DNA of 23,456 nt from a virus: positions 1-23,456 of the IMG/VR virus record IMGVR_UViG_3300010151_000173; one strand, written 5' to 3'. Every line of letters starts with the position of its first letter. The stretch's first letter is position 1. Shown piece by piece: positions 2,371-22,402 of this stretch. Under the pieces are notes generated by a model. The model saw nothing but the letters and a program-made list of their open reading frames with translations. It was not told where the DNA came from and did no database searches. The translations under genes and the position numbers were made by a program.

Positions 2371-2683
2371 GCGAAAAACAGCAACAGCACCTCGCGCCAA
2401 GCGCAAGGTGGTCGAAGAAGCTCCAGATCACTTCGATGAGATGACAGTCGAACTTGAATCGATGTGTGATGTTTCCTTCAACAAGCGATACAATCTTTTC
2501 TTGGACAAGCGCCCCTATGAGGTGCGTCTGTGCAGTGTGGATTCAAGCAATATACTGGCCTACTTCTTCCGCTCCCACACCACCAGAGACTGCGAGTATC
2601 TCTCTCAATCTAGCTTGATGCATGATCTTGTATCTACAGGCGATTACCCGAATGTAACGGCATTTATCAAGCGCCATGGCTGA
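2363..2683 (+). CDS. Small hypothetical protein (106 aa)
   Basis: Not recognised. The start at ATG 2363 is preferred over an in-frame ATG at 2273 because AGGAG at about 2348-2352 sits ten bases upstream and because 2273 would overlap the HNH gene by nearly 100 bases. The N-terminus is basic and low-complexity (MAKRKTATAPRAKRKVVEE), as in nucleic-acid-binding tails, followed by an acidic stretch and a compact C-terminal region. It overlaps the HNH gene by 8 bases and the next gene by 8, so it appears translationally coupled. A DNA-binding accessory of the packaging or replication module would fit, but nothing in the sequence proves it. Confidence 0.7.
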   Translation: MAKRKTATAPRAKRKVVEEAPDHFDEMTVELESMCDVSFNKRYNLFLDKRPYEVRLCSVDSSNILAYFFRSHTTRDCEYLSQSSLMHDLVSTGDYPNVTAFIKRHG

Positions 2684-3626
2684 ACTGAACAACATAAAAA
2701 GCCTCAAAACGTGCGGACAAAAATATTCCCGTCCGCGCAATGAGCGCCAGCTGCGTGACGTGTTAGAGACAAAGCCACCGCGATTTGAGTTCGTCAACCA
2801 GATCGAAATATATCTACTGGAAGACGATGGCTCGCGCAAGCGCAGGGTCTGTGGCCATCACACCAACCATGCTTTGCCTACGTTTGTTCCCGACGATATG
2901 GACAATCCACACGGTTGGATCAACCCACGACAGCAAAGACGATGCACCAACTACGCCGGATACCGCACTGATCACGCAGGGCTTGGCCCTTGCAATCGAC
3001 ATCAAAACTGCTGGTATGCCGGTTGGGGCGGTAGGGCATACAGTAAATCTTATCGACTCGCACATGACTTCGAGGAGTTGGTGCGCAATGAATTTTTAAC
3101 TGGGGAAACCATGACTGAAAATGCAATAACGGCAGGCGACGCCGCAGAAGATTCACTGGAATTCAATAAGTATTTGGATAAAGTGAAAAGTGAGCTTTCA
3201 CCCGAAGATCTATATGACTCGGTTCGATCTCTCTATGAGCTTGAAGCACTTAAAGAGATGGCTAAAGATAAGATGACTGAAGATGGAGTGACTCTTGATC
3301 GCATTGAGTCAGTGGCCACTCAGATCATCAAAAGTGCTCAGTATCAAGCAACGACCGCTCGGCGCGATGCAACGATCATGCAGGGAAGGGCTGTTCAGGC
3401 CATTGCTCAAGTGATGGTCACTGGCATACTGCACATAGTCTCTGAGACTGTTAAGGGAGATGCAGCAGTGTCCATCTTAAAACGCATAAAAGACGAATTG
3501 GTCTTGCCGACTAATGAATTTGGCTATACCGAGATGATACGAAGGCAAAAAGCTGCCGGTATTAGCGAAACTGTATCACAATTAGTAGAACAAGAGCCAT
3601 CATCTGATGGTATTGTGGACAAATAG
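2676..3626 (+). CDS. Zinc-motif protein, candidate small terminase subunit
   Basis: 316 aa in two parts. Residues about 55-115 hold Cys/His clusters: VCGHHTNH (C59, H61, H62), then RRCTNYAGYRTDHAGLGPC and NRHQNC (C90, H100, C106, H109, C112). The phrase 'G(T)DHxGxGxCxxH' recurs in phage proteins encoded just before large terminases. Residues about 160-290 are predominantly helical (SLYELEALKEMAKDKM, IESVATQIIKSAQYQ), as in oligomeric small terminase subunits. Its position, shortly upstream of the ATPase gene, supports a DNA-recognition role in packaging. The role is an inference: no clear helix-turn-helix is visible, and a zinc-binding regulator is an alternative. Confidence 0.55.
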   Translation: MAELNNIKSLKTCGQKYSRPRNERQLRDVLETKPPRFEFVNQIEIYLLEDDGSRKRRVCGHHTNHALPTFVPDDMDNPHGWINPRQQRRCTNYAGYRTDHAGLGPCNRHQNCWYAGWGGRAYSKSYRLAHDFEELVRNEFLTGETMTENAITAGDAAEDSLEFNKYLDKVKSELSPEDLYDSVRSLYELEALKEMAKDKMTEDGVTLDRIESVATQIIKSAQYQATTARRDATIMQGRAVQAIAQVMVTGILHIVSETVKGDAAVSILKRIKDELVLPTNEFGYTEMIRRQKAAGISETVSQLVEQEPSSDGIVDK

Positions 3627-3713
3627 CATCTATATTGTAATATTATTAATATAAAGCATAGCCATATTATGCTAATTATGCACTATCTTCATCTTTTTAA
3701 TAGGGAGTTGCAT
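3627..3713 (+). promoter_or_regulatory. AT-rich intergenic region with weak sigma70-like promoter
   Basis: This 87-base gap is the largest on the plus-strand side and is much more AT-rich than its neighbours. TTGTGG at 3613-3618 and TGTAAT at 3636-3641 are 17 bases apart; the second is a 5/6 match to the sigma70 -10 box, the first only 3/6 to the -35 box. A leader of roughly 65 bases would precede the MotA-like gene, with AGGGAG at 3702-3707 as its ribosome binding site. Recognition by the phage's own sigma factor instead is possible. Confidence 0.3.
3655..3673 (+). other. Hairpin in the leader of the MotA-like gene
   Basis: AGCATA (3655-3660) pairs with TATGCT (3668-3673) around a 7-base loop. 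The stem is AT-rich and weak and is not followed by a T-run, so it is unlikely to be an intrinsic terminator. It could affect mRNA stability or be incidental in AT-rich DNA. Confidence 0.25.
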
Positions 3714-4085
3714 ATGTCCAAAGTCAAACAGATCATCGGATTTGTAGGGCTATTTGTTTTGTCTGCACTCGCGATGGAAGATCCGACAATTTTCATAAAT
3801 GTCCCATCCCTGCTGATCGTCGTCGGCATGACTGGCTGTGCGCTCTTGTTCACTAATGTGAAGACAGGCACCGCAGATTTCTGGCGATTAACTCGCTTAT
3901 ATGCAATGGGTTCTGGCGGTTTTGGCACCTTAATTGGACTTGTGCTCATGCTCGTAGCCTTGGACGATCCAGCGAAGATCGGACCCGCGATTGCCATATC
4001 TATTCTAACTGTGTTATACGCAGTGTTTATTGGCTATTTCATTGCCTTGCCAATGGAAAATCGCAGCCGAATGGCTTCCCGTTAG
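3714..4085 (+). CDS. Short MotA/PomA-like stator membrane protein
   Basis: A 123-aa membrane protein with about four hydrophobic segments (near residues 5-20, 28-46, 64-84, 90-113). FINVPSLLIVVG (27-38) matches the second-helix signature of MotA/PomA. GTLIGLVLML (71-80) followed by DDPAKIGPAIAISILTVLY (84-102) and ending in ALPMENR matches helices 3 and 4 of MotA/PomA, which conduct H+ or Na+ with MotB/PomB in flagellar stators. The roughly 100-residue cytoplasmic loop between helices 2 and 3, which carries the rotor-interacting charges, is absent. ATG 3714 is chosen over an in-frame ATG at 3669 because AGGGAG lies 6 bases upstream. No MotB-like partner is visible. It may act as a channel, a holin-like protein or a poison subunit. 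Similarity is read by eye. Confidence 0.65.
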   Translation: MSKVKQIIGFVGLFVLSALAMEDPTIFINVPSLLIVVGMTGCALLFTNVKTGTADFWRLTRLYAMGSGGFGTLIGLVLMLVALDDPAKIGPAIAISILTVLYAVFIGYFIALPMENRSRMASR

Positions 4086-4086
4086 A

Positions 4087-5253
4087 ATGAATAAGACGGC
4101 TAATGTCTGGACAGATCTGGATCAAATCCTAACGACCTCCATTGAGGACTTGGAAAAAGATCAGATAGGTGCTGAAAAATATCGCGGGGCTCGCAAAGAG
4201 TGGAACGACGATGTAGCAGACGCGGAGATGGAAGTAACTATCGAAGACTTATTGCGCGATGATTACTACCTTGGCCGCTTCAAGATTTGGGAGTCCGTGC
4301 GCCAAGAATTGGCCGATGTCTGGCATATGCGTTGCGATTTTGACGTGGCCTTTATAGCACATGAAAAGACATTACAAACCGTTCGTGTTTACGCCTTGTC
4401 GTTTGAACATGCCAAGCGCAAGGCGATTGCTGCTTATCCCACTGTGCATGGCCAAAGCGATGAGGTGACCGTTCGACGTGCTCATAATGTGCATACTGTG
4501 GTGATTGAGACACCCAAGGGGACAGGCAAGGATTTTGAAATGTCATTGGCCATCTGGCTACTGACCAGAGAATTCCTTATTCAGCCTCGCACCGAATTTT
4601 TTGAGCCATACAACTTAGACCTCGATACTACCATTTCCATAAACTGCATGAATCGGTCGGAGGACCAAGCGAAGAAGGTTACGTTCAAAGAACTGCTTCC
4701 CAAGTTCGATACTCCCTTTTTTAACGATTACTTCCCGCCGCAAATCGACATCTCTGACATGCAAGACAAGCGACAGTATCCGAGCGAACTGCGTTTTCCT
4801 CGTAACGTAGTCATTTTCCCCGGCTCTGGATCGGCTGCTACGGGGCTTGGTTATTGCATTGGGGCAGGGGTGATCGATGAGGCCAATTTCATGGAGAGGA
4901 CGGGGTCATCTAAGCGAGCCCTGACTGGCGCCGATGAGTATGATGCGGCAAGAGAGGCCTATGAAGACCTCTATCAACGTCAGGAATCCCGCTTTGGCGC
5001 CATTAGACACGGGCAAATGTGTTTGGCTGGATTGATTATTGTCATTTCTTCTTCCCGTACCACCAATGATTTTACGCAGAAAATGAAACGCCGCGCCCAT
5101 AATGATCGTGGGATATTCTACACGAGCAAGCCGTTTTGGGAGCGCAAGCCTCTAAATCTTAGTGGAAAGACGTTTTCCTTTGATGTGGATAACGTCAAGG
5201 TTGTCAACTCTGCCAAAGCCGAGGAAACACTTGAGGCCGTTACAGCTGCGTAG
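4087..5253 (+). CDS. Terminase large subunit, ATPase domain (separate ORF)
   Basis: Motor half of the DNA-packaging terminase, which translocates phage DNA into the prohead. Within 388 aa the visible motifs are a Walker A-like TPKGTGKD at 142-149 (the residue after Lys is Asp, not the usual Ser/Thr), Walker B VIDEANFM at 262-269 with E265 as catalytic carboxylate, and a coupling motif ISSSRT at 320-325. The end (LSGKTFSFDVDN) matches the place where terminases normally continue into 'VIEVPxEY' and the nuclease; here it stops, and that continuation starts at 6847. An in-frame ATG at 4030 lies inside the MotA-like gene, so ATG 4087, one base after that gene's stop, is preferred. Residues 1-130 are an N-terminal extension I cannot assign. 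Confidence 0.82.
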   Translation: MNKTANVWTDLDQILTTSIEDLEKDQIGAEKYRGARKEWNDDVADAEMEVTIEDLLRDDYYLGRFKIWESVRQELADVWHMRCDFDVAFIAHEKTLQTVRVYALSFEHAKRKAIAAYPTVHGQSDEVTVRRAHNVHTVVIETPKGTGKDFEMSLAIWLLTREFLIQPRTEFFEPYNLDLDTTISINCMNRSEDQAKKVTFKELLPKFDTPFFNDYFPPQIDISDMQDKRQYPSELRFPRNVVIFPGSGSAATGLGYCIGAGVIDEANFMERTGSSKRALTGADEYDAAREAYEDLYQRQESRFGAIRHGQMCLAGLIIVISSSRTTNDFTQKMKRRAHNDRGIFYTSKPFWERKPLNLSGKTFSFDVDNVKVVNSAKAEETLEAVTAA

Positions 5254-5275
5254 TCGTACTTGTTGAGGTTCGCCA

Positions 5276-6187
5276 ATGGAAGCCGAAGAAAGCTTTTCAA
5301 ATACCACTACACGATTGAGCAATATATGCATACGCACTGACATCAATGTTGCTGATTCACAGAAGACGCAAAGTGTTCTATTCCAATCGGACCAACACTT
5401 TGACTCTACGTATTGCCTGCGCGATATGTTAGAGCGCCACCTACAGGAAGCCGTCAGCACAAACTCACCTATTTATTTTTTAGGTGACTGGTATGATATG
5501 ATGCAAGGCCGAAATGATCCCCGTCGTTCCAAAAATTCTATGCGTCCCGGCCTAATGGCCGACAACTACATTGATCGGGCGATAGACGAAACTGTGGAAT
5601 TTTTGACCCCATACTGCAAAAACATTGTCGGTTGGGCCAAGGGCAATCATGAAACCAGTATTTTGCGTCATCTGGAAACTGACGTTATCAATCGAACCAT
5701 CGAATCATTGCGCCACAAAGGGGCTTCGATAAAGCCGATGGGCTATCAAGGGTGGATCTTTTTCCTCCTCCACCGAAACCCCATGTCAACGAACAAGCGA
5801 CGGTCAGACACTTACACTATCCGCACTTTTTACACCCATGGATACGGAGGTTCATCGCCCGTTACAAAAGGTGTAATACAGGCCAATCGCAAGGCGGTTT
5901 ACTTGCCCGATGCGGACATCGTTATCAGTGGCCACACACATCAGCAGTGGGACTTTCCAGTTACCCGTTATCGCATCTCACAGCGCGGAAAGCAATACAC
6001 GGACACGCAATATCATTTGCAGTTGCCCTGCTATTTAGATCCGTCACCGGAAGATGCAGACGGCATGGGATGGGCCATAGAAAAGGGCTATTCTCCTACA
6101 CCCACTGGAGCTTGGTGGGTGGATTTTACCTACGCAAAGCTCGACAATCATCGAATCTTTACCACTGACGTGCGTCGCGCACAATGA
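5276..6187 (+). CDS. Calcineurin-like metallophosphoesterase
   Basis: 303 aa with the complete di-metal phosphoesterase motif set: SDQH (D39, H41), GDWYD (D71, D74), GNHE (N124, H125), THG (H188) and GHTH (H220, H222). These residues bind two metal ions in phosphatases, phosphodiesterases and Mre11/SbcD-type nucleases, so catalytic activity is expected; the substrate cannot be told. No signal peptide, so it is likely cytoplasmic. It lies between the two terminase halves, starting 22 bases after the ATPase gene. A role in processing DNA ends, a protein phosphatase or a nucleotide phosphodiesterase are all open. The gene is followed by a well-placed GAGGAG for the next small gene. Confidence 0.85.
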   Translation: MEAEESFSNTTTRLSNICIRTDINVADSQKTQSVLFQSDQHFDSTYCLRDMLERHLQEAVSTNSPIYFLGDWYDMMQGRNDPRRSKNSMRPGLMADNYIDRAIDETVEFLTPYCKNIVGWAKGNHETSILRHLETDVINRTIESLRHKGASIKPMGYQGWIFFLLHRNPMSTNKRRSDTYTIRTFYTHGYGGSSPVTKGVIQANRKAVYLPDADIVISGHTHQQWDFPVTRYRISQRGKQYTDTQYHLQLPCYLDPSPEDADGMGWAIEKGYSPTPTGAWWVDFTYAKLDNHRIFTTDVRRAQ

Positions 6188-6197
6188 GGAGTGTATT

Positions 6198-6353
6198 ATG
6201 ACCGTTGAAGAGGCTCGTGATCGAGTCGCAATCTTATTGCAGCATGCCCATTCTGTGATGTCTCCAGAGACGCGCAAGGAATTAAATGAGTGCATGCAAG
6301 TGCTTGACCCCAACTTCGATCCTACAGTGAACATCCAACGAGTTACTGAATGA
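6198..6353 (+). CDS. Small hypothetical protein (51 aa)
   Basis: A short gene: ATG at 6198 preceded by TGAGGAG (about 6185-6191), stop TGA at 6351-6353. The product begins MTVEEARDRVAILLQHAH and looks like two amphipathic helices (about 3-18 and 23-36) with an acidic, unstructured tail. Its stop overlaps the next start (ATGA). It sits in the module between the terminase halves. The strong ribosome binding site and the coupling support a real gene; its function is unknown. Confidence 0.65.
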   Translation: MTVEEARDRVAILLQHAHSVMSPETRKELNECMQVLDPNFDPTVNIQRVTE

Positions 6354-6850
6354 CCATTATTGTCGAACGGGCCGACAATGCTCGCAGGGCGATAGCGCGG
6401 GGCTATCGGTGGCAAGAATACCGCGTAGCCACTGTTCGGTTTGTATCTAAGGAGTGCTTTTCTACTCTCTTTAACACTTCGATGAAGGCGTGCTCTGAAG
6501 CGATGGGCGCATGGGAAGGAGCAGTGGCAGGCTATATCAATCGGCGCAGCGATCATCTGGGACTGCACATAGCCAACATATCGGCGCAGCTGGTTGAAGA
6601 GCCTAATGAGTCGAGGATAGTAGAGGCCAATTTGTGGCGCATAAAAGATCCTATATGCGTGTGGTCTGTGTGGGCCAATCTCGAAGGACCGGTGCCCGAA
6701 TTCAAGTGGTCTGAACGCTTTATTCCGCTCTTTAATTTCTGGCCTCGCGATCTGGGTAACCCTACGTCAGCTATGCCTGAAATCATTGACGCCTCAAAGC
6801 TATCAGCGTTTGAGCAGGGACAAATAATCACAAGCGAAGCCATGCAATGA
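6350..6850 (+). CDS. Hypothetical protein in the terminase-splitting module (166 aa)
   Basis: Not recognised. A soluble protein rich in Trp and aromatic residues (IKDPICVWSVWANLEG, FIPLFNFWPRDLG), with a basic N-terminus (RADNARRAIARGYRWQEYR). There are no membrane segments, signal peptide or clear catalytic motif. It is coupled on both sides by ATGA overlaps, to the 51-aa gene before it and to the terminase nuclease after it, so its translation is tied to terminase nuclease production. This arrangement suggests a partner or regulator of the nuclease half, which is inference from position only. Confidence 0.7.
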   Translation: MTIIVERADNARRAIARGYRWQEYRVATVRFVSKECFSTLFNTSMKACSEAMGAWEGAVAGYINRRSDHLGLHIANISAQLVEEPNESRIVEANLWRIKDPICVWSVWANLEGPVPEFKWSERFIPLFNFWPRDLGNPTSAMPEIIDASKLSAFEQGQIITSEAMQ

Positions 6851-7896
6851 TTGTTGAAATACCCATAGAGTTCTATCGCGCCTTTAAGGACAATCCCGAA
6901 AGGGCGATGCTGGAGTACCTGTCGATCCCCGTAGGAGCGACTAACCCATACTTCCGCAGTCCAGAACATATCCAAGGGGCGATAAGTAAGGGTGCGTCTA
7001 TTCCACTGGCCATCGATGAGGACACCTACGCGCTGCGGCCCGACTTCAGGGCCACTAATGTAGTGCCTCGTTACATGCACATTGACTTAGCGATTCGCAG
7101 AGATGCCGTGGGTATGTCTATGTGCCACGCAGTTGGCTTTACGAAGCGGCAGATGCGCATGCCCGGCGATGAGGAATATCGAGAGATTAATATTCCCAAG
7201 ATAAAGTTTGATTTCGTCAGTCGAATTAAGCCGCGAAGGTACTATGATGAGCGTGAAATGTCGTTTAATGCGCTGATGAGCATCATCGAACAGTTGGTTT
7301 ACGAGCGAGAATTTAACTTACAAGACGGACTGATTACGTTTGACCGTTTTCAAAGCCACCAGATGATCTCCAATATTCGCGGCATGGGCATTCCTTGCGG
7401 CCTACTCTCTGTGGATCAAACATCCAACAAGGTCATGATCGACTTTTCAAAGCCGGAGATGATCCGCAAGGAAACAATCAGTCGAGAGCCTTCAGCTGCA
7501 ATGGGCGCATTGCGCGATGCGCTACACGAATCGCGGGTAATATTGCCACAAATGACCTTCTTTGATGAGTCGCGTACGTGGATCGAAAAGGAAATGGACG
7601 AGGCTCAGTTCGATGGACAAAAGGGCAAAGTAGTCAAAATGGAAGGGGGGACGGATGATGTCCTCCAAAGCGCAGCGGGTGCACTCTTTAACTGTATGAA
7701 CAATGCTTCTGAAATGGTCGATCCAGAGGAACTATCGGCCTTTGACCAGCAATCAGAAGATGAATTTTATGGAAACTTGGGCATCGATTCGATAGCGGAC
7801 AGCGACAATGAAGATGGGTTCGTAGAAGACTCGTTCGGAGTAGAAGAAAACGATCTATCTCAAACCATGAGCCTAGAAGATTTTCTGGGAAGATAA
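6847..7896 (+). CDS. Terminase large subunit, nuclease domain (separate ORF)
   Basis: RNase H-like nuclease half of the terminase, which cuts concatemeric DNA at packaging start and end. It opens with VEIPIEFYRAFKDNPERAM, which in other terminases directly follows the ATPase domain. Catalytic carboxylates are seen in MHIDLAIRRDAVGMS (D80, D86), ITFDRFQS (D166) and GGTDDVLQS (D270/D271). Residues about 289-349 form a long acidic tail. The start ATG overlaps the 166-aa gene's stop (ATGA). A terminase ATPase domain is absent here and is supplied by the ORF at 4087-5253, nearly 1.6 kb upstream. Together the two would make about 737 aa, near the size of a complete TerL. Confidence 0.85.
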   Translation: MIVEIPIEFYRAFKDNPERAMLEYLSIPVGATNPYFRSPEHIQGAISKGASIPLAIDEDTYALRPDFRATNVVPRYMHIDLAIRRDAVGMSMCHAVGFTKRQMRMPGDEEYREINIPKIKFDFVSRIKPRRYYDEREMSFNALMSIIEQLVYEREFNLQDGLITFDRFQSHQMISNIRGMGIPCGLLSVDQTSNKVMIDFSKPEMIRKETISREPSAAMGALRDALHESRVILPQMTFFDESRTWIEKEMDEAQFDGQKGKVVKMEGGTDDVLQSAAGALFNCMNNASEMVDPEELSAFDQQSEDEFYGNLGIDSIADSDNEDGFVEDSFGVEENDLSQTMSLEDFLGR

Positions 7897-7899
7897 ATT

Positions 7900-9744
7900 A
7901 TGACCGATTCAACTGGATTCACTGAAGACTTAGCAACAGAGCTTGGACGAGTCGTCGTTTCTGAAGTCGGCGCTCTCGAAGAGCGGATACGAAGCGACGT
8001 AGAAGAGAAGATGAAGGCTGAACAAGACGAAAAGATAAATGATGCCGTCTTAGACGCCGTAGCAGAGATGGGAGCCGATGTAAACAGGGGATATACAGAC
8101 ACCAGCGGCGGCATGTTGGAATTTGGCACAGGCGATGTCACGTTAGCCACACAGGCCTCCCAACTACTCGACAGCCGATGGAAGCCTCTTGTAGTGTCAT
8201 CTGACAGTGTGGATGACAGTTCCATCAAGCAGGCTTTGACCGAATTCTTCGCTGGTGGTCCACTCGGATCGTATGCCGTTGGGTCCGACGAAGACTCTGC
8301 GGTGCTGGTTCAGGTGATGGAAAGCTGCCATCAAAAGGCGAAGATCGATCCACATGCCAAATCCATCATATCCAACCTGACCAACTATACAGTGGGAACA
8401 GGCCTTGAAATTTCTTGTTCGGTGCAAGAAATAGAAGACGAATTGCGCTCGTTTGCTTCATCCAATCAATTACACAGTCGTATAAAACAGGCCGTAAAAA
8501 GCAAGTTCATTCACGGCGAACACTACTTTTTCTACTACATAGATCCCTCTACAGGCGACGTCCACTTACGCGACCGGACGAAGCCTTACGATATACGCTC
8601 TATTCAAACGCATCCCGAAGATACAGAAACGCGACTGGCCTACGGTAAGCTGATGGAAAACGATTCTGTAAATCGCATTTCATTTGACACCGACAGAGAC
8701 TCTGCCAAATACGACTGGTATGCCGACATCGACTATTTCGAGCAGAAGGCTTTGCCCAGTGGGGCCGTTGCAAAAGGCACGGGCCGCATGTCGAATCGCA
8801 AGCTCGTTCAGATGGTCAAAATGGGCGCAGGGTCGGATGTGCGCGGAGTGCCGTTAATGTATCCGGTATTGCGCTATTTGAAGTATTACGAGGACTTCAT
8901 AACCGATAGGATTATCCTCAATCACGAACGCTCTAAGGTGGTCTGGGTGCGCCGTATTAGCGGTAATCGAAAGCTGGCTGGAGGAAGGGCGCAGCGCGGC
9001 CCTGTAGGCGGTCAAATCTTAACAGAGACCCCTCAGGTCGAGTGGCGTGTTATTAAGCCTGAGATCAACGCTGATGATGTTACCGAAGACGGTAGATTGA
9101 TACGATTGGCTATCGCCTCTGGTGTGGGCATGCCAGAGCATCTGCTTTTCCAAGACCCCTCAAATCAAGTGTATGCTAGCATCCGCAGTAGCGATACGCC
9201 CTTTGCTCAATCGATCCGCTCGTATCAGTTCGATTGGCTTAAAGACCTTGAAATCATGTTTCGTGTCGTTTTACGCGAGAAGGTCAAGGCGGGAGCACTG
9301 CCAGAGAAAACAGAAGTAGAAACCTTTACCATGGAAAGCTATGATCGATTGGCCGATGAGATTGGCCCAATGGTTCGCGCTAAAGCTCCACAGAGCGAAA
9401 TCATTCATGCCGTAGCTCAAGTTGGCGAAGAGGTTCCCACTGAAACCGTTAGTATAGATACTGTTGATGTAAAGATCGATCTCCAGTTTCCAGAAGTCGT
9501 GCAACAAGATCCAATCCGCATGGCACAGGAGTCAGAGATTCTTCATCGAATCGGCGTGCTATCCAAGACAGAGATTGCCGCTCGACACGGATTCAACTTC
9601 AAGCAAAGTGCTAAGCTGATGAGCATGGAACGAGCTTGGGATACCAGCAATGGTGAGGAAGATGATTCTGGGGGGCCTGAAACCTACGGCAAAGGATCCG
9701 ATTCTAATGAGCCTGAAACCGACACAGAGGAGGAAGAAGAATGA
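7900..9744 (+). CDS. Portal protein
   Basis: 614 aa, the dodecameric portal that forms the capsid vertex for DNA entry and tail attachment. Typical wording includes RGVPLMYPVLRYLKYYEDF (about 313-331) followed by ILNHERSKVVWVRRI, and GVGMPEHLLFQDPSNQVYAS (about 408-427) leading into IRSSDTPF, a stretch common in phage portals of this branch. The first 60 residues are charged and helical and the last 20 strongly acidic (EEEEE end). It begins 3 bases after the terminase nuclease stop, the standard TerL-portal order. Its stop overlaps the next start (ATGA). No capsid protease or major capsid gene follows, which is unusual. Confidence 0.85.
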   Translation: MTDSTGFTEDLATELGRVVVSEVGALEERIRSDVEEKMKAEQDEKINDAVLDAVAEMGADVNRGYTDTSGGMLEFGTGDVTLATQASQLLDSRWKPLVVSSDSVDDSSIKQALTEFFAGGPLGSYAVGSDEDSAVLVQVMESCHQKAKIDPHAKSIISNLTNYTVGTGLEISCSVQEIEDELRSFASSNQLHSRIKQAVKSKFIHGEHYFFYYIDPSTGDVHLRDRTKPYDIRSIQTHPEDTETRLAYGKLMENDSVNRISFDTDRDSAKYDWYADIDYFEQKALPSGAVAKGTGRMSNRKLVQMVKMGAGSDVRGVPLMYPVLRYLKYYEDFITDRIILNHERSKVVWVRRISGNRKLAGGRAQRGPVGGQILTETPQVEWRVIKPEINADDVTEDGRLIRLAIASGVGMPEHLLFQDPSNQVYASIRSSDTPFAQSIRSYQFDWLKDLEIMFRVVLREKVKAGALPEKTEVETFTMESYDRLADEIGPMVRAKAPQSEIIHAVAQVGEEVPTETVSIDTVDVKIDLQFPEVVQQDPIRMAQESEILHRIGVLSKTEIAARHGFNFKQSAKLMSMERAWDTSNGEEDDSGGPETYGKGSDSNEPETDTEEEEE

Positions 9745-10059: not shown

Positions 10060-10953
10060 ATGGATTACCCGATACAGAAGAGTGAAAAAAATGCGATAAC
10101 GCGGCTATGTCGGCGCTATCGACATCTGCCTCCCATGACGCGACCCGATGAACGCGCTTCATTTGCACAGTTGCGCATTCTTGAAAACGTAGGCGGTCCA
10201 CGTCCAAAAATAGACACCCTGCAAGATGCGATAATGCGCTCTAATGTGCGCTTTGTAGCGACGGTAGTGTTGTCATATGATCGACGCAGTAAAGTTTTAG
10301 CTGTAGATGATCTGATGTCAGAGGGCATGGTAGGGTTGATGGAGGCAATGACCCGCTTCGACCCAAGTCGCAACTGTAAGTTTATCACGTATGCCGTGTG
10401 GTGGATTCGCAACACGATTATTAGTGCACTGATACAAGCCTACACGATAACTCCTTCTCAATCGTTTATTGATAAAATCCGCAAAATGGAGAAGGAAAAG
10501 AAATCACTTGAGCAGGCATTAGGTAGACACCTCACAGATAGGGAGAGCTTTGAACTGAGCGAGATGCGCAAGGATTTTGTCGAAGCCTATATAGCCCACA
10601 CCTCAGTAATTACCTCTCTTGATATGCCTTTGTTTTTTATCGACAACGATTTGGAAGGCTCAACGACGCTGCGCGACTTTATACGCGACGAAACAATTCA
10701 ACCGAGCGACGATGCAATGGTTGATGCTGAGTTGCTACTGGACGTTAGGGAGGTAGTCAATTCCATCGATGGACTACGCGAGCGGTTTATAGTCCAGAGC
10801 TATCACGGGATAGATGGCCCTGCGATGGTCTTAGAAGATATTGGCAAATCTCTAGGCTTAACTAGAGAGCGAGTGCGGCAGATCTATTGGATGGCACTAC
10901 GAAAACTGTCGCGCAATAAGGTGCTGGCCTCGCATCGCAAGGACAGCTACTAA
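10060..10953 (+). CDS. Phage-encoded sigma-70 family RNA polymerase factor
   Basis: 297 aa sigma factor, expected to redirect host RNA polymerase to phage promoters. Region 2 is clear at about 84-123 (DDLMSEGMVGLMEAMTRFDP, then FITYAVWWIRNTI), containing the -10 recognition and melting helix. A region 3-like stretch follows (SLDMPLFFIDNDLEG, DFIRDE), and region 4.2 carries the -35 helix-turn-helix at about 257-285 (LEDIGKSLGLTRERVRQIYW). This is the layout of RpoD/RpoH-type factors; region 1.1 is absent. It ends 10951-10953, overlapping the stop of the opposing tail gene. Late control of the minus-strand tail/lysis block is a natural hypothesis. A host-derived sigma gene cannot be excluded. 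Confidence 0.88.
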   Translation: MDYPIQKSEKNAITRLCRRYRHLPPMTRPDERASFAQLRILENVGGPRPKIDTLQDAIMRSNVRFVATVVLSYDRRSKVLAVDDLMSEGMVGLMEAMTRFDPSRNCKFITYAVWWIRNTIISALIQAYTITPSQSFIDKIRKMEKEKKSLEQALGRHLTDRESFELSEMRKDFVEAYIAHTSVITSLDMPLFFIDNDLEGSTTLRDFIRDETIQPSDDAMVDAELLLDVREVVNSIDGLRERFIVQSYHGIDGPAMVLEDIGKSLGLTRERVRQIYWMALRKLSRNKVLASHRKDSY

Positions 10954-21051: not shown

Positions 21052-21621
21052 TTACTCTCTCCCCGTTGAAGGTTTGCGAAGCACCTTGGTTAATATGGCA
21101 CCCAACAGCGCGACCCAACCAAATAGGCCTGCTGTTGCTATGTTATCCATAAACGATAAAGGATTGGCCATTGACTTGAGACTATCAAGCCGACTGGCAA
21201 TACTTTCCATTTGTTGATTCAATGCATCTTTTTGTGCGTTGATGCGATTGAATAAGTCTTTCTGTCTTTCAATGGACAGCCCACCCATTACTTTCACTTC
21301 TGACTCAAAGCGCTGAACTTTTTCTACTACGCGCTCTTTGATCAGCTGCGGCACTTGATTCTTGCCTTTTTCAATTTCTGCTCTCAAAGAGTCTATCAGC
21401 ACCAGTATTTCAGACGATGTGGATTCGACTTTAGCCACTGACCCTGAAATCACATTTATCTTTTTCGTCTGCGCTATGGCCTCGGCTTTCAGATTGTCCG
21501 TCTTTTGGTGCACGGATACGATAGCCGTCGATAGGGGATTGAGCGACATTTGTATCCGCTCTGGAATAGAGGCCGTAGCGCAGCCGAAGCAAAGCAGGGC
21601 AGGGAGAAGCCGAACTGTCAC
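21052..21621 (-). CDS. Candidate unimolecular spanin (lipoprotein signal + C-terminal TM)
   Basis: 189 aa with an N-terminal secretion-like stretch RLLPALLCFGC ending in a cysteine preceded by glycine (C14), a possible but non-canonical lipobox. Then comes a long helical/coiled-coil region (about 38-150) and a single C-terminal membrane span AGLFGWVALLGAILTKV (about 164-180) followed by a basic end. This topology, outer-membrane lipid at one end and inner-membrane helix at the other, is that of u-spanins such as T1 gp11, which fuse the two membranes at the last step of Gram-negative lysis. Its GTG overlaps the holin-like gene's stop (GTGA). If the Cys is not lipidated it could be a simple membrane-anchored coiled coil. 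No endolysin is seen in the window. Confidence 0.5.
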   Translation of the reverse strand: MTVRLLPALLCFGCATASIPERIQMSLNPLSTAIVSVHQKTDNLKAEAIAQTKKINVISGSVAKVESTSSEILVLIDSLRAEIEKGKNQVPQLIKERVVEKVQRFESEVKVMGGLSIERQKDLFNRINAQKDALNQQMESIASRLDSLKSMANPLSFMDNIATAGLFGWVALLGAILTKVLRKPSTGRE

Positions 21622-21800
21622 TTGTCAGCCTTTTCTGAAGCTGCTTCGCCGAAATAAAACGCCATGATCATGGAATAGAGCGTTATGAACTCACCCGATA
21701 CGCCACTACCGGCTAATTCACCAGCTACCACGCACACCGTAAGTCCGGAGGCAATGAGAGGACGAACATATGCTTTGAAATTACGACCCTCCATTACCAT
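21618..21800 (-). CDS. Holin-like small membrane protein (60 aa)
   Basis: 60 aa with two hydrophobic segments: VRPLIASGLTVCVVAGELA (about 12-30) and FITLYSMIMAFYFGE (about 38-52), then a charged tail EAASEKADK. The pattern 'RPLI...ltv...' ending in 'FYFGE.a' is seen in phage holins and related small inner-membrane proteins. It would form or seed membrane holes at lysis. It overlaps the outer-membrane-type gene by 7 bases, and ATG 21794 (TAATG overlap) is a second possible start giving 58 aa. The adjacent u-spanin-like gene supports a lysis setting. Confidence 0.55.
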   Translation of the reverse strand: MVMEGRNFKAYVRPLIASGLTVCVVAGELAGSGVSGEFITLYSMIMAFYFGEAASEKADK

Positions 21801-22402
21801 CTCTTGCTTGCAATGAGGAAGGGCGATTCGGTGTCTGCATTATACATGAAGGATGCTCCATAGCCGCCCTCTAATTCGATTTCAGCGCCTATAACGACAA
21901 GCCCCATATCATCGTCATCCGTTATGTAATTGCCGTCTCCTACGCCTGCAAATACGCCAAAGCCGCCTATGTCGTATCCTACTTGAAGCCACTTATCATT
22001 TTTGACTGCATCGCCAGAAACGAAATAGCCGACCATTAGATCGACCCCCTCATACGACGCAGCGAATGACACCTCTACATCGTGACTGTCTACTTCAAGA
22101 AAGGGGCCGTCGTAGTAATATGCCGTTGCAGTAAGCGTGCCTATTTTGCCAATGTCTTGTGCAACGGTAAGATCTATCTCTGTCGCGTCGCCTCGGATGG
22201 GCACTTGCCCCCAAAGGCCCACACTGGTCCCATTGCTGGACAAGGGAATTCGTATATCTGGCTGTATGGAGATAGCGTCCGGTCCCGCTTGACCGCGCCA
22301 GACATGTCTAGTGTGTGCCGATATGTCTATCGAAGGCTGCGAGGCGGCTATAGAAGTCGTAAACAAAAGGGTTATAAGACTAAGGATGATCTTTTTCATC
22401 AT
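21794..22402 (-). CDS. Outer-membrane-type protein, TorF/Gcw_chp-like
   Basis: 202 aa with a typical Sec signal peptide (KKIILSLITLLFTTSIAA, cut near residue 20, A|SQ). The mature part is beta-rich: HVWRGQAGPDAISIQPDIRI, SVGLWGQVPIRGDATEIDL, LTATAYYYDG. The 'RG... Q.D... G.WG... EiDl... yYY' order resembles the bacterial TorF/Gcw_chp family, and the chain ends in SKRW, where a C-terminal aromatic residue is a typical BAM assembly signal. An outer-membrane beta-barrel is expected, probably taken from a host. A role as receptor mask, exclusion factor or in the late envelope is possible. AAAGGAAG is the ribosome binding site; two adjacent ATGs (22402, 22399) are both possible. Confidence 0.65.
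   Translation of the reverse strand: MMKKIILSLITLLFTTSIAASQPSIDISAHTRHVWRGQAGPDAISIQPDIRIPLSSNGTSVGLWGQVPIRGDATEIDLTVAQDIGKIGTLTATAYYYDGPFLEVDSHDVEVSFAASYEGVDLMVGYFVSGDAVKNDKWLQVGYDIGGFGVFAGVGDGNYITDDDDMGLVVIGAEIELEGGYGASFMYNADTESPFLIASKRW

Follow-up and report, generated by a model that had tools for sequence, protein, structure and literature searches.

Gene content around the mini-MotA locus

The window analyzed here, the whole of a 23,456-base virus record, contains at positions 3714 to 4085 an open reading frame for a 123-residue protein, which we term mini-MotA. The frame starts with the ATG at 3714, just preceded by the sequence AGGGAG, and ends with the stop codon at 4083–4085, the encoded protein running from MSKVKQIIGF to MASR. 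The initial annotation had placed the frame, its length and the motifs it quoted (including GTLIGLVLML) exactly. The gene sits between a 316-residue gene and a probable TerL gene, the ATG of which lies one base past the mini-MotA stop. The relevant features are as follows.

2676–3626, + strand: upstream gene, 316 residues, no Pfam or PHROGs match
3627–3713, + strand: AT-rich 87-bp leader with the Shine-Dalgarno-like AGGGAG ahead of the ATG at 3714, from the sequence
3714–4085, + strand: mini-MotA gene, 123 residues, loop-less MotA/PomA-type stator A subunit, from profile, PDB-sequence and fold matches
Residues 3–20, 30–47, 54–81 and 86–122 of mini-MotA: helices in the predicted model
4087–5253, + strand: downstream gene, candidate ATPase half of TerL, from motifs only (Walker-like ETPKGTGKD and VIDEAN)
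7900–9744, + strand: portal protein, PHROGs portal match at 1.5e-14
21618–21800, − strand: 60-residue membrane protein, candidate holin, similar by eye to the C-terminal portion of the GTA-holin-like protein of viral lineage 2

Of the gene's proposed "own leader", the 87-bp AT-rich stretch is present, but promoter-like matches within it are not clearly more than chance would give. Its placement within the packaging module is likely correct, as the portal gene is confirmed by its PHROGs match, while TerL is recognized by motif only; the gene at 4087–5253 gave neither a profile nor a PDB sequence match. Across 4087–7896 a split TerL is probable on a motif reading only, with an ATPase-like part at 4087–5253 and a nuclease-like part at 6847–7896, separated by a calcineurin-like phosphoesterase gene (5276–6187, Pfam Metallophos) and a 166-residue gene; profile and PDB sequence searches with the split TerL genes gave no match. 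The window also encodes a factor of the sigma-70 family that has regions 2, 3 and 4 (10060–10953), and genes for a DnaB-like helicase and a tail-fibre protein were identified in this virus. The 60-residue candidate holin has no Pfam match and stands apart from the mini-MotA gene.

A nearly identical contig (L001, 99.96–99.98%) extends the window leftward and carries a tyrosine integrase (PF00589) and a CI-like repressor (HTH), and the virus is therefore probably temperate. The left half of L001 yielded no tRNA. From the company of its relatives, we infer that the virus is marine. The mini-MotA gene is identical in L001, while that in a further contig, L002, differs by six synonymous and three non-synonymous base changes, leaving the protein 98% identical; other viruses encode relatives at 43–53% identity. 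These observations rule out a truncation or assembly artefact.

Mini-MotA is a MotA/PomA-type protein without the torque-generating loop

Mini-MotA matches the Pfam MotA_ExbB family (PF01618) with an E value of 8.5e-7 and 29.2 bits, above the curated cut-off of 22.9, which is also exceeded by its relatives in five virus records. The best NCBIfam model is PomA (1.6e-15), with MotP at 2.7e-12, and phmmer comparison with solved chains returned MotA at 4.4e-12 and PomA at 1.1e-10. Mini-MotA is thus a member of the MotA/PomA branch of PF01618. Among annotated phages only three weak Listeria matches were found (E 0.1), and the lineage-2 protein matched none.

The torque-generating loop of MotA contacts FliG of the rotor. 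With mini-MotA as query, the phmmer alignment splits into two segments, between which falls the loop of the MotA or PomA chain. Conversely, a profile built from the loop-less proteins (minis, 123–204 residues) aligns with them in one unbroken stretch and with full-length MotAs (at least 250 residues) in two. The rotor-contacting loop between TM2 and TM3 is thus really absent from mini-MotA, and this one-segment versus two-segment pattern upholds the loop deletion first read from the sequence.

AlphaFold2 modeled mini-MotA as a stator four-helix bundle with a mean pLDDT of 94.2. The input alignment consisted of 50 window and locus proteins; because full-length MotAs were among them, what the model shows is a sequence compatible with the stator fold, not proof independent of homology. 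Among PDB folds, the model matched PomA and MotA chains best, with TM-scores of 0.72–0.84 by query length for several of them, while TolQ and ExbB scored clearly lower. An earlier model from five sequences, now superseded, was weak (pLDDT 67), yet also ranked PomA first. A fold search of BFVD with mini-MotA gave no significant match. The initial annotation had assigned the protein to the MotA/PomA family with four stator helices, an assignment borne out by Pfam, NCBIfam, phmmer, AlphaFold2 and the fold search: rather than a missing profile match or a different fold, a MotA/PomA profile and a stator fold were found.

In the minis sampled, residues for packing are mostly retained while those for ion binding and torque are lost

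Residues were compared in an alignment of 14 minis, 4 of them viral and 10 cellular, and 30 full-length MotAs, the latter picked from search matches and not at random, so that the residue counts describe a chosen sample of 44 sequences. In PomA numbering, the TM3 glycine zipper is largely preserved in the minis (G154 in 13/14, G157 in 11/14 and G161 in 14/14). P177 and Y188 are retained in all 14 and T185 in 12, and the DDPxxIGP turn, present in mini-MotA of the window, is mostly retained. In contrast, P151, M155 and N194, each found in 29–30 of the 30 full-length MotAs, occur in none of the minis; N194 is replaced by tyrosine or phenylalanine in 12 of 14, and T186 is missing from 11 and present in 3. 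The window protein has M65 in place of P151 and V100 in place of T186, retains T158 and T185, and is without an acidic residue at the ion site in TM3/TM4.

Na+ binding by PomA involves P151, T158, T185 and T186, and its G154–G161 zipper serves TM3/TM4 packing (PMC10374538). In Escherichia coli MotA, partial deletions in the torque-generating interface abolish motility (PMC12505986). In this sample the minis have thus retained packing features and lost those for ion binding and torque, and the loss of P151, M155 and N194 throughout, together with that of T186 in most, makes ion-driven torque unlikely.

Loop-less relatives in other viruses

Searches of IMG/VR identified three further viral lineages with loop-less relatives, of 155 residues (L003/L004), 149 residues (L008) and 148 residues (L013). 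Scanning IMG/VR with a profile of full-length MotA, limited to two peptide patterns, found only loop-less genes and no full-length viral MotA, so that, within that scan, the full-length protein is rejected as the typical version of MotA in viruses. The MotA/PomA-type genes are loop-less in 4/4 viral lineages compared with 2/80 cellular loci; the IMG/VR scans rest on short peptide patterns and more divergent viral MotAs may exist.

The gene neighborhood differs among the viral lineages. In lineage 2 the mini-MotA gene shares bases with the start of a GTA_holin_3TM-like gene (ATGA in L004 and TAATG in L008); the Pfam matches of the latter (0.0031 and 9.5e-5) both miss its curated cut-off, the 9.5e-5 match by little. 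The lineage-3 gene has an Amidase_2 gene ~1.4 kb upstream and, alone among the genes of its 19-kb contig, encodes a protein predicted to have four membrane segments. Thus, the place next to the terminase, the conservation of which the initial annotation had proposed to survey, is not conserved. The proposed lack of a MotB partner holds on the six virus records searched for MotB_plug, all possibly incomplete, which yielded none. A secreted beta-barrel-like protein appears, by eye, to be common to the window virus (21794–22402) and the otherwise different viruses of lineage 2 (L004, 1847–2467; L008, 1–294).

Loop-less MotAs in bacterial chromosomes and their flagellar association

In bacterial genomes the mini profile retrieved mostly full-length MotAs and some loop-less ones. 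The chromosomal minis are from Gemmatimonadota (L015, L050, L097, L098, L122, L124 and L137) and a planctomycete (L125); four further loci (L017, L024, L030 and L072) that seemed loop-less by match length proved to be full-length MotAs. The minis occur singly or as tandem pairs, the latter in two Gemmatimonadetes MAGs. No MotB adjoined them in the neighborhoods read (L015, L050, L097, L098, L122 and L124), and they did not adjoin lysis genes in the loci read. In two pairs the first gene (L015, 4397–4915; L050, 4313–4855) has an extra C-terminal hydrophobic segment, which could form a fifth membrane helix. The existence of chromosomal minis rules out the loop deletion as a phage invention, contrary to the phage-specific deletion originally envisaged, and the phage form therefore belongs to a wider loop-less class.

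At an E value of 1e-25, a strict threshold that more distant minis would escape, surveys found minis in 0 of 274 in the gammaproteobacterial class of genome G070 and in 1 of 149 in the planctomycete phylum of G072. In a tree built on 110 columns, the mini at L122 and the full-length MotA encoded by the same genome form a sister pair (UFBoot 97), with deeper branches weakly supported; this grouping suggests that the loop was lost more than once.

Of 64 Gemmatimonadota genomes, 8 carry minis, and 7 of these have FlhA, as do 18 of the 56 others (Fisher p 0.004, a value that ignores relatedness and MAG incompleteness). This association is compatible with a motor-related role and just as compatible with an origin of minis as MotA duplicates. 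FliG_C matches are numerous in mini-carrying Gemmatimonadota (loci L138–L140), with 10 in G006, 19 in G007, 12 in G069 and 6 in G048, and some of the FliG genes in G006 are full-length and stand-alone, with no flagellar neighbors in the stretch read. G006, G069 and G048 yielded no MotB_plug gene.

Possible roles of mini-MotA

Our tentative preference, held at less than even confidence, is that mini-MotA is a non-motor "dead stator" paralogue that acts on host MotA-type complexes. The PomA-like, loop-less protein would form a non-conducting stator of the inner membrane, assembling alone or mixed with host MotA. Host MotA-type stators would be its target, through mixed pentamers or by competing for motor sites or MotB, and the most likely outcome would be a flagellar motor silenced or retuned during infection or lysogeny. 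We favor this reading because the sequence is PomA-type, with packing motifs kept and torque parts lost; because of the flagellar association; and because the L122 mini groups with the MotA of its own genome and viral MotA/PomA-type genes are found only in loop-less form. The more specific proposal of a dominant-negative subunit, which would enter host MotA pentamers or motor sites and stop or retune swimming by way of a loop-less form that bacteria apparently evolved more than once, is possible but on balance doubtful. Several points weigh against a dead stator: the flagellar association may only mean that copies of MotA in flagellated lineages give rise to minis, a gene among apparent late genes would act at an odd time for halting swimming, a holin-like gene is overlapped in lineage 2, and loss of N194 and P151 could weaken binding to host MotA or MotB.

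The overlap in lineage 2 is also a link to lysis, in which mini-MotA would be an inner-membrane oligomer expressed with the late genes and working with a holin as co-holin, antiholin or pore. Its small size, four TM segments and apparent late-region position would suit such an accessory, as would the upstream Amidase_2 gene of lineage 3 and the lack of any other four-segment membrane protein on its contig, so that genomic context fits in two of the four viral lineages. However, the window gene lies outside the lysis region, with the holin-like gene elsewhere (21618–21800), stator-specific motifs are common to mini-MotA and bacterial MotAs, and the chromosomal relatives read are not beside lysis genes. 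A lysis accessory is the main rival, a reading we regard as plausible without expecting it to be right, and it and the dead stator are close. We would give about as little credence to a stand-alone membrane function of the cellular mini class, for example as a scaffold or partner, carried by the phage for host fitness or superinfection exclusion: chromosomal minis occur singly or in tandem without adjoining MotB and the virus is probably temperate, but no partner gene is kept across lineages and the gene position is atypical for lysogenic conversion. An ion leak that de-energizes the cell, raised at the outset and in keeping with membership of the ion-driven stator family, is improbable given that P151 (0/14) and T186 (3/14) are lost from the minis, that the ion site lacks an acidic residue and that no MotB gene was seen to supply the ion-binding aspartate. 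Most improbable is a decoy or inhibitor of Zorya acting through ZorA, a distant relative of MotA (PMC12505986); no evidence for it emerged, as the window protein has no match among PADLOC defence profiles, its sequence and fold are PomA/MotA-like and its family matches are to flagellar PomA/MotA.

Whatever its role, the loop-less MotA class spans phages and bacterial chromosomes and, in our sample, its members lack the same residues for torque and ion binding but have mostly kept packing motifs. The minis thereby offer a natural test that separates the parts of a stator needed for assembly from those needed for torque, and mini-MotA is a possible phage handle on bacterial motility. A "motA" annotation in a virome need not indicate a working motor.

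Comparison with known systems

Viral motA and motB have been described as auxiliary genes (PMC8290583), both of them in a glacier-ice virus and one or the other in 70 contigs of the Global Ocean Virome, and our virus likewise places a MotA-family gene in marine virus contigs. In the available portion of that report, the pair was modeled as MotA plus MotB and the loop content of the contigs was not at issue. Virus-borne motA was thus already reported, and the initial view that no such phage system had been described is partly wrong, though open-licence PubMed Central literature yielded no account of a loop-less MotA class or an orphan MotA. Like the chromosomal minis, mini-MotA is loop-less and lacks P151 and N194; the chromosomal proteins differ in a linker usually ~18 residues longer and, in two first-of-pair genes, in the fifth C-terminal hydrophobic segment. 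With ExbB, TolQ and AglR, classed as generic ion transporters among MotA relatives (PMC12505986), mini-MotA shares a superfamily and small cytoplasmic domains, but its sequence and fold scores are clearly better to PomA/MotA. With PomA/MotA themselves (PF01618; PDB 8brd, 8gqy and 6ysl) it has in common the four-helix membrane fold, the TM3 glycine zipper, Y188 and the FINVPSLLIVVG and DDPxxIGP motifs; it differs in having no torque-generating loop, P151, M155 or N194, in the T186-to-valine replacement, and in the absence of a MotB-plug gene on the virus records searched.
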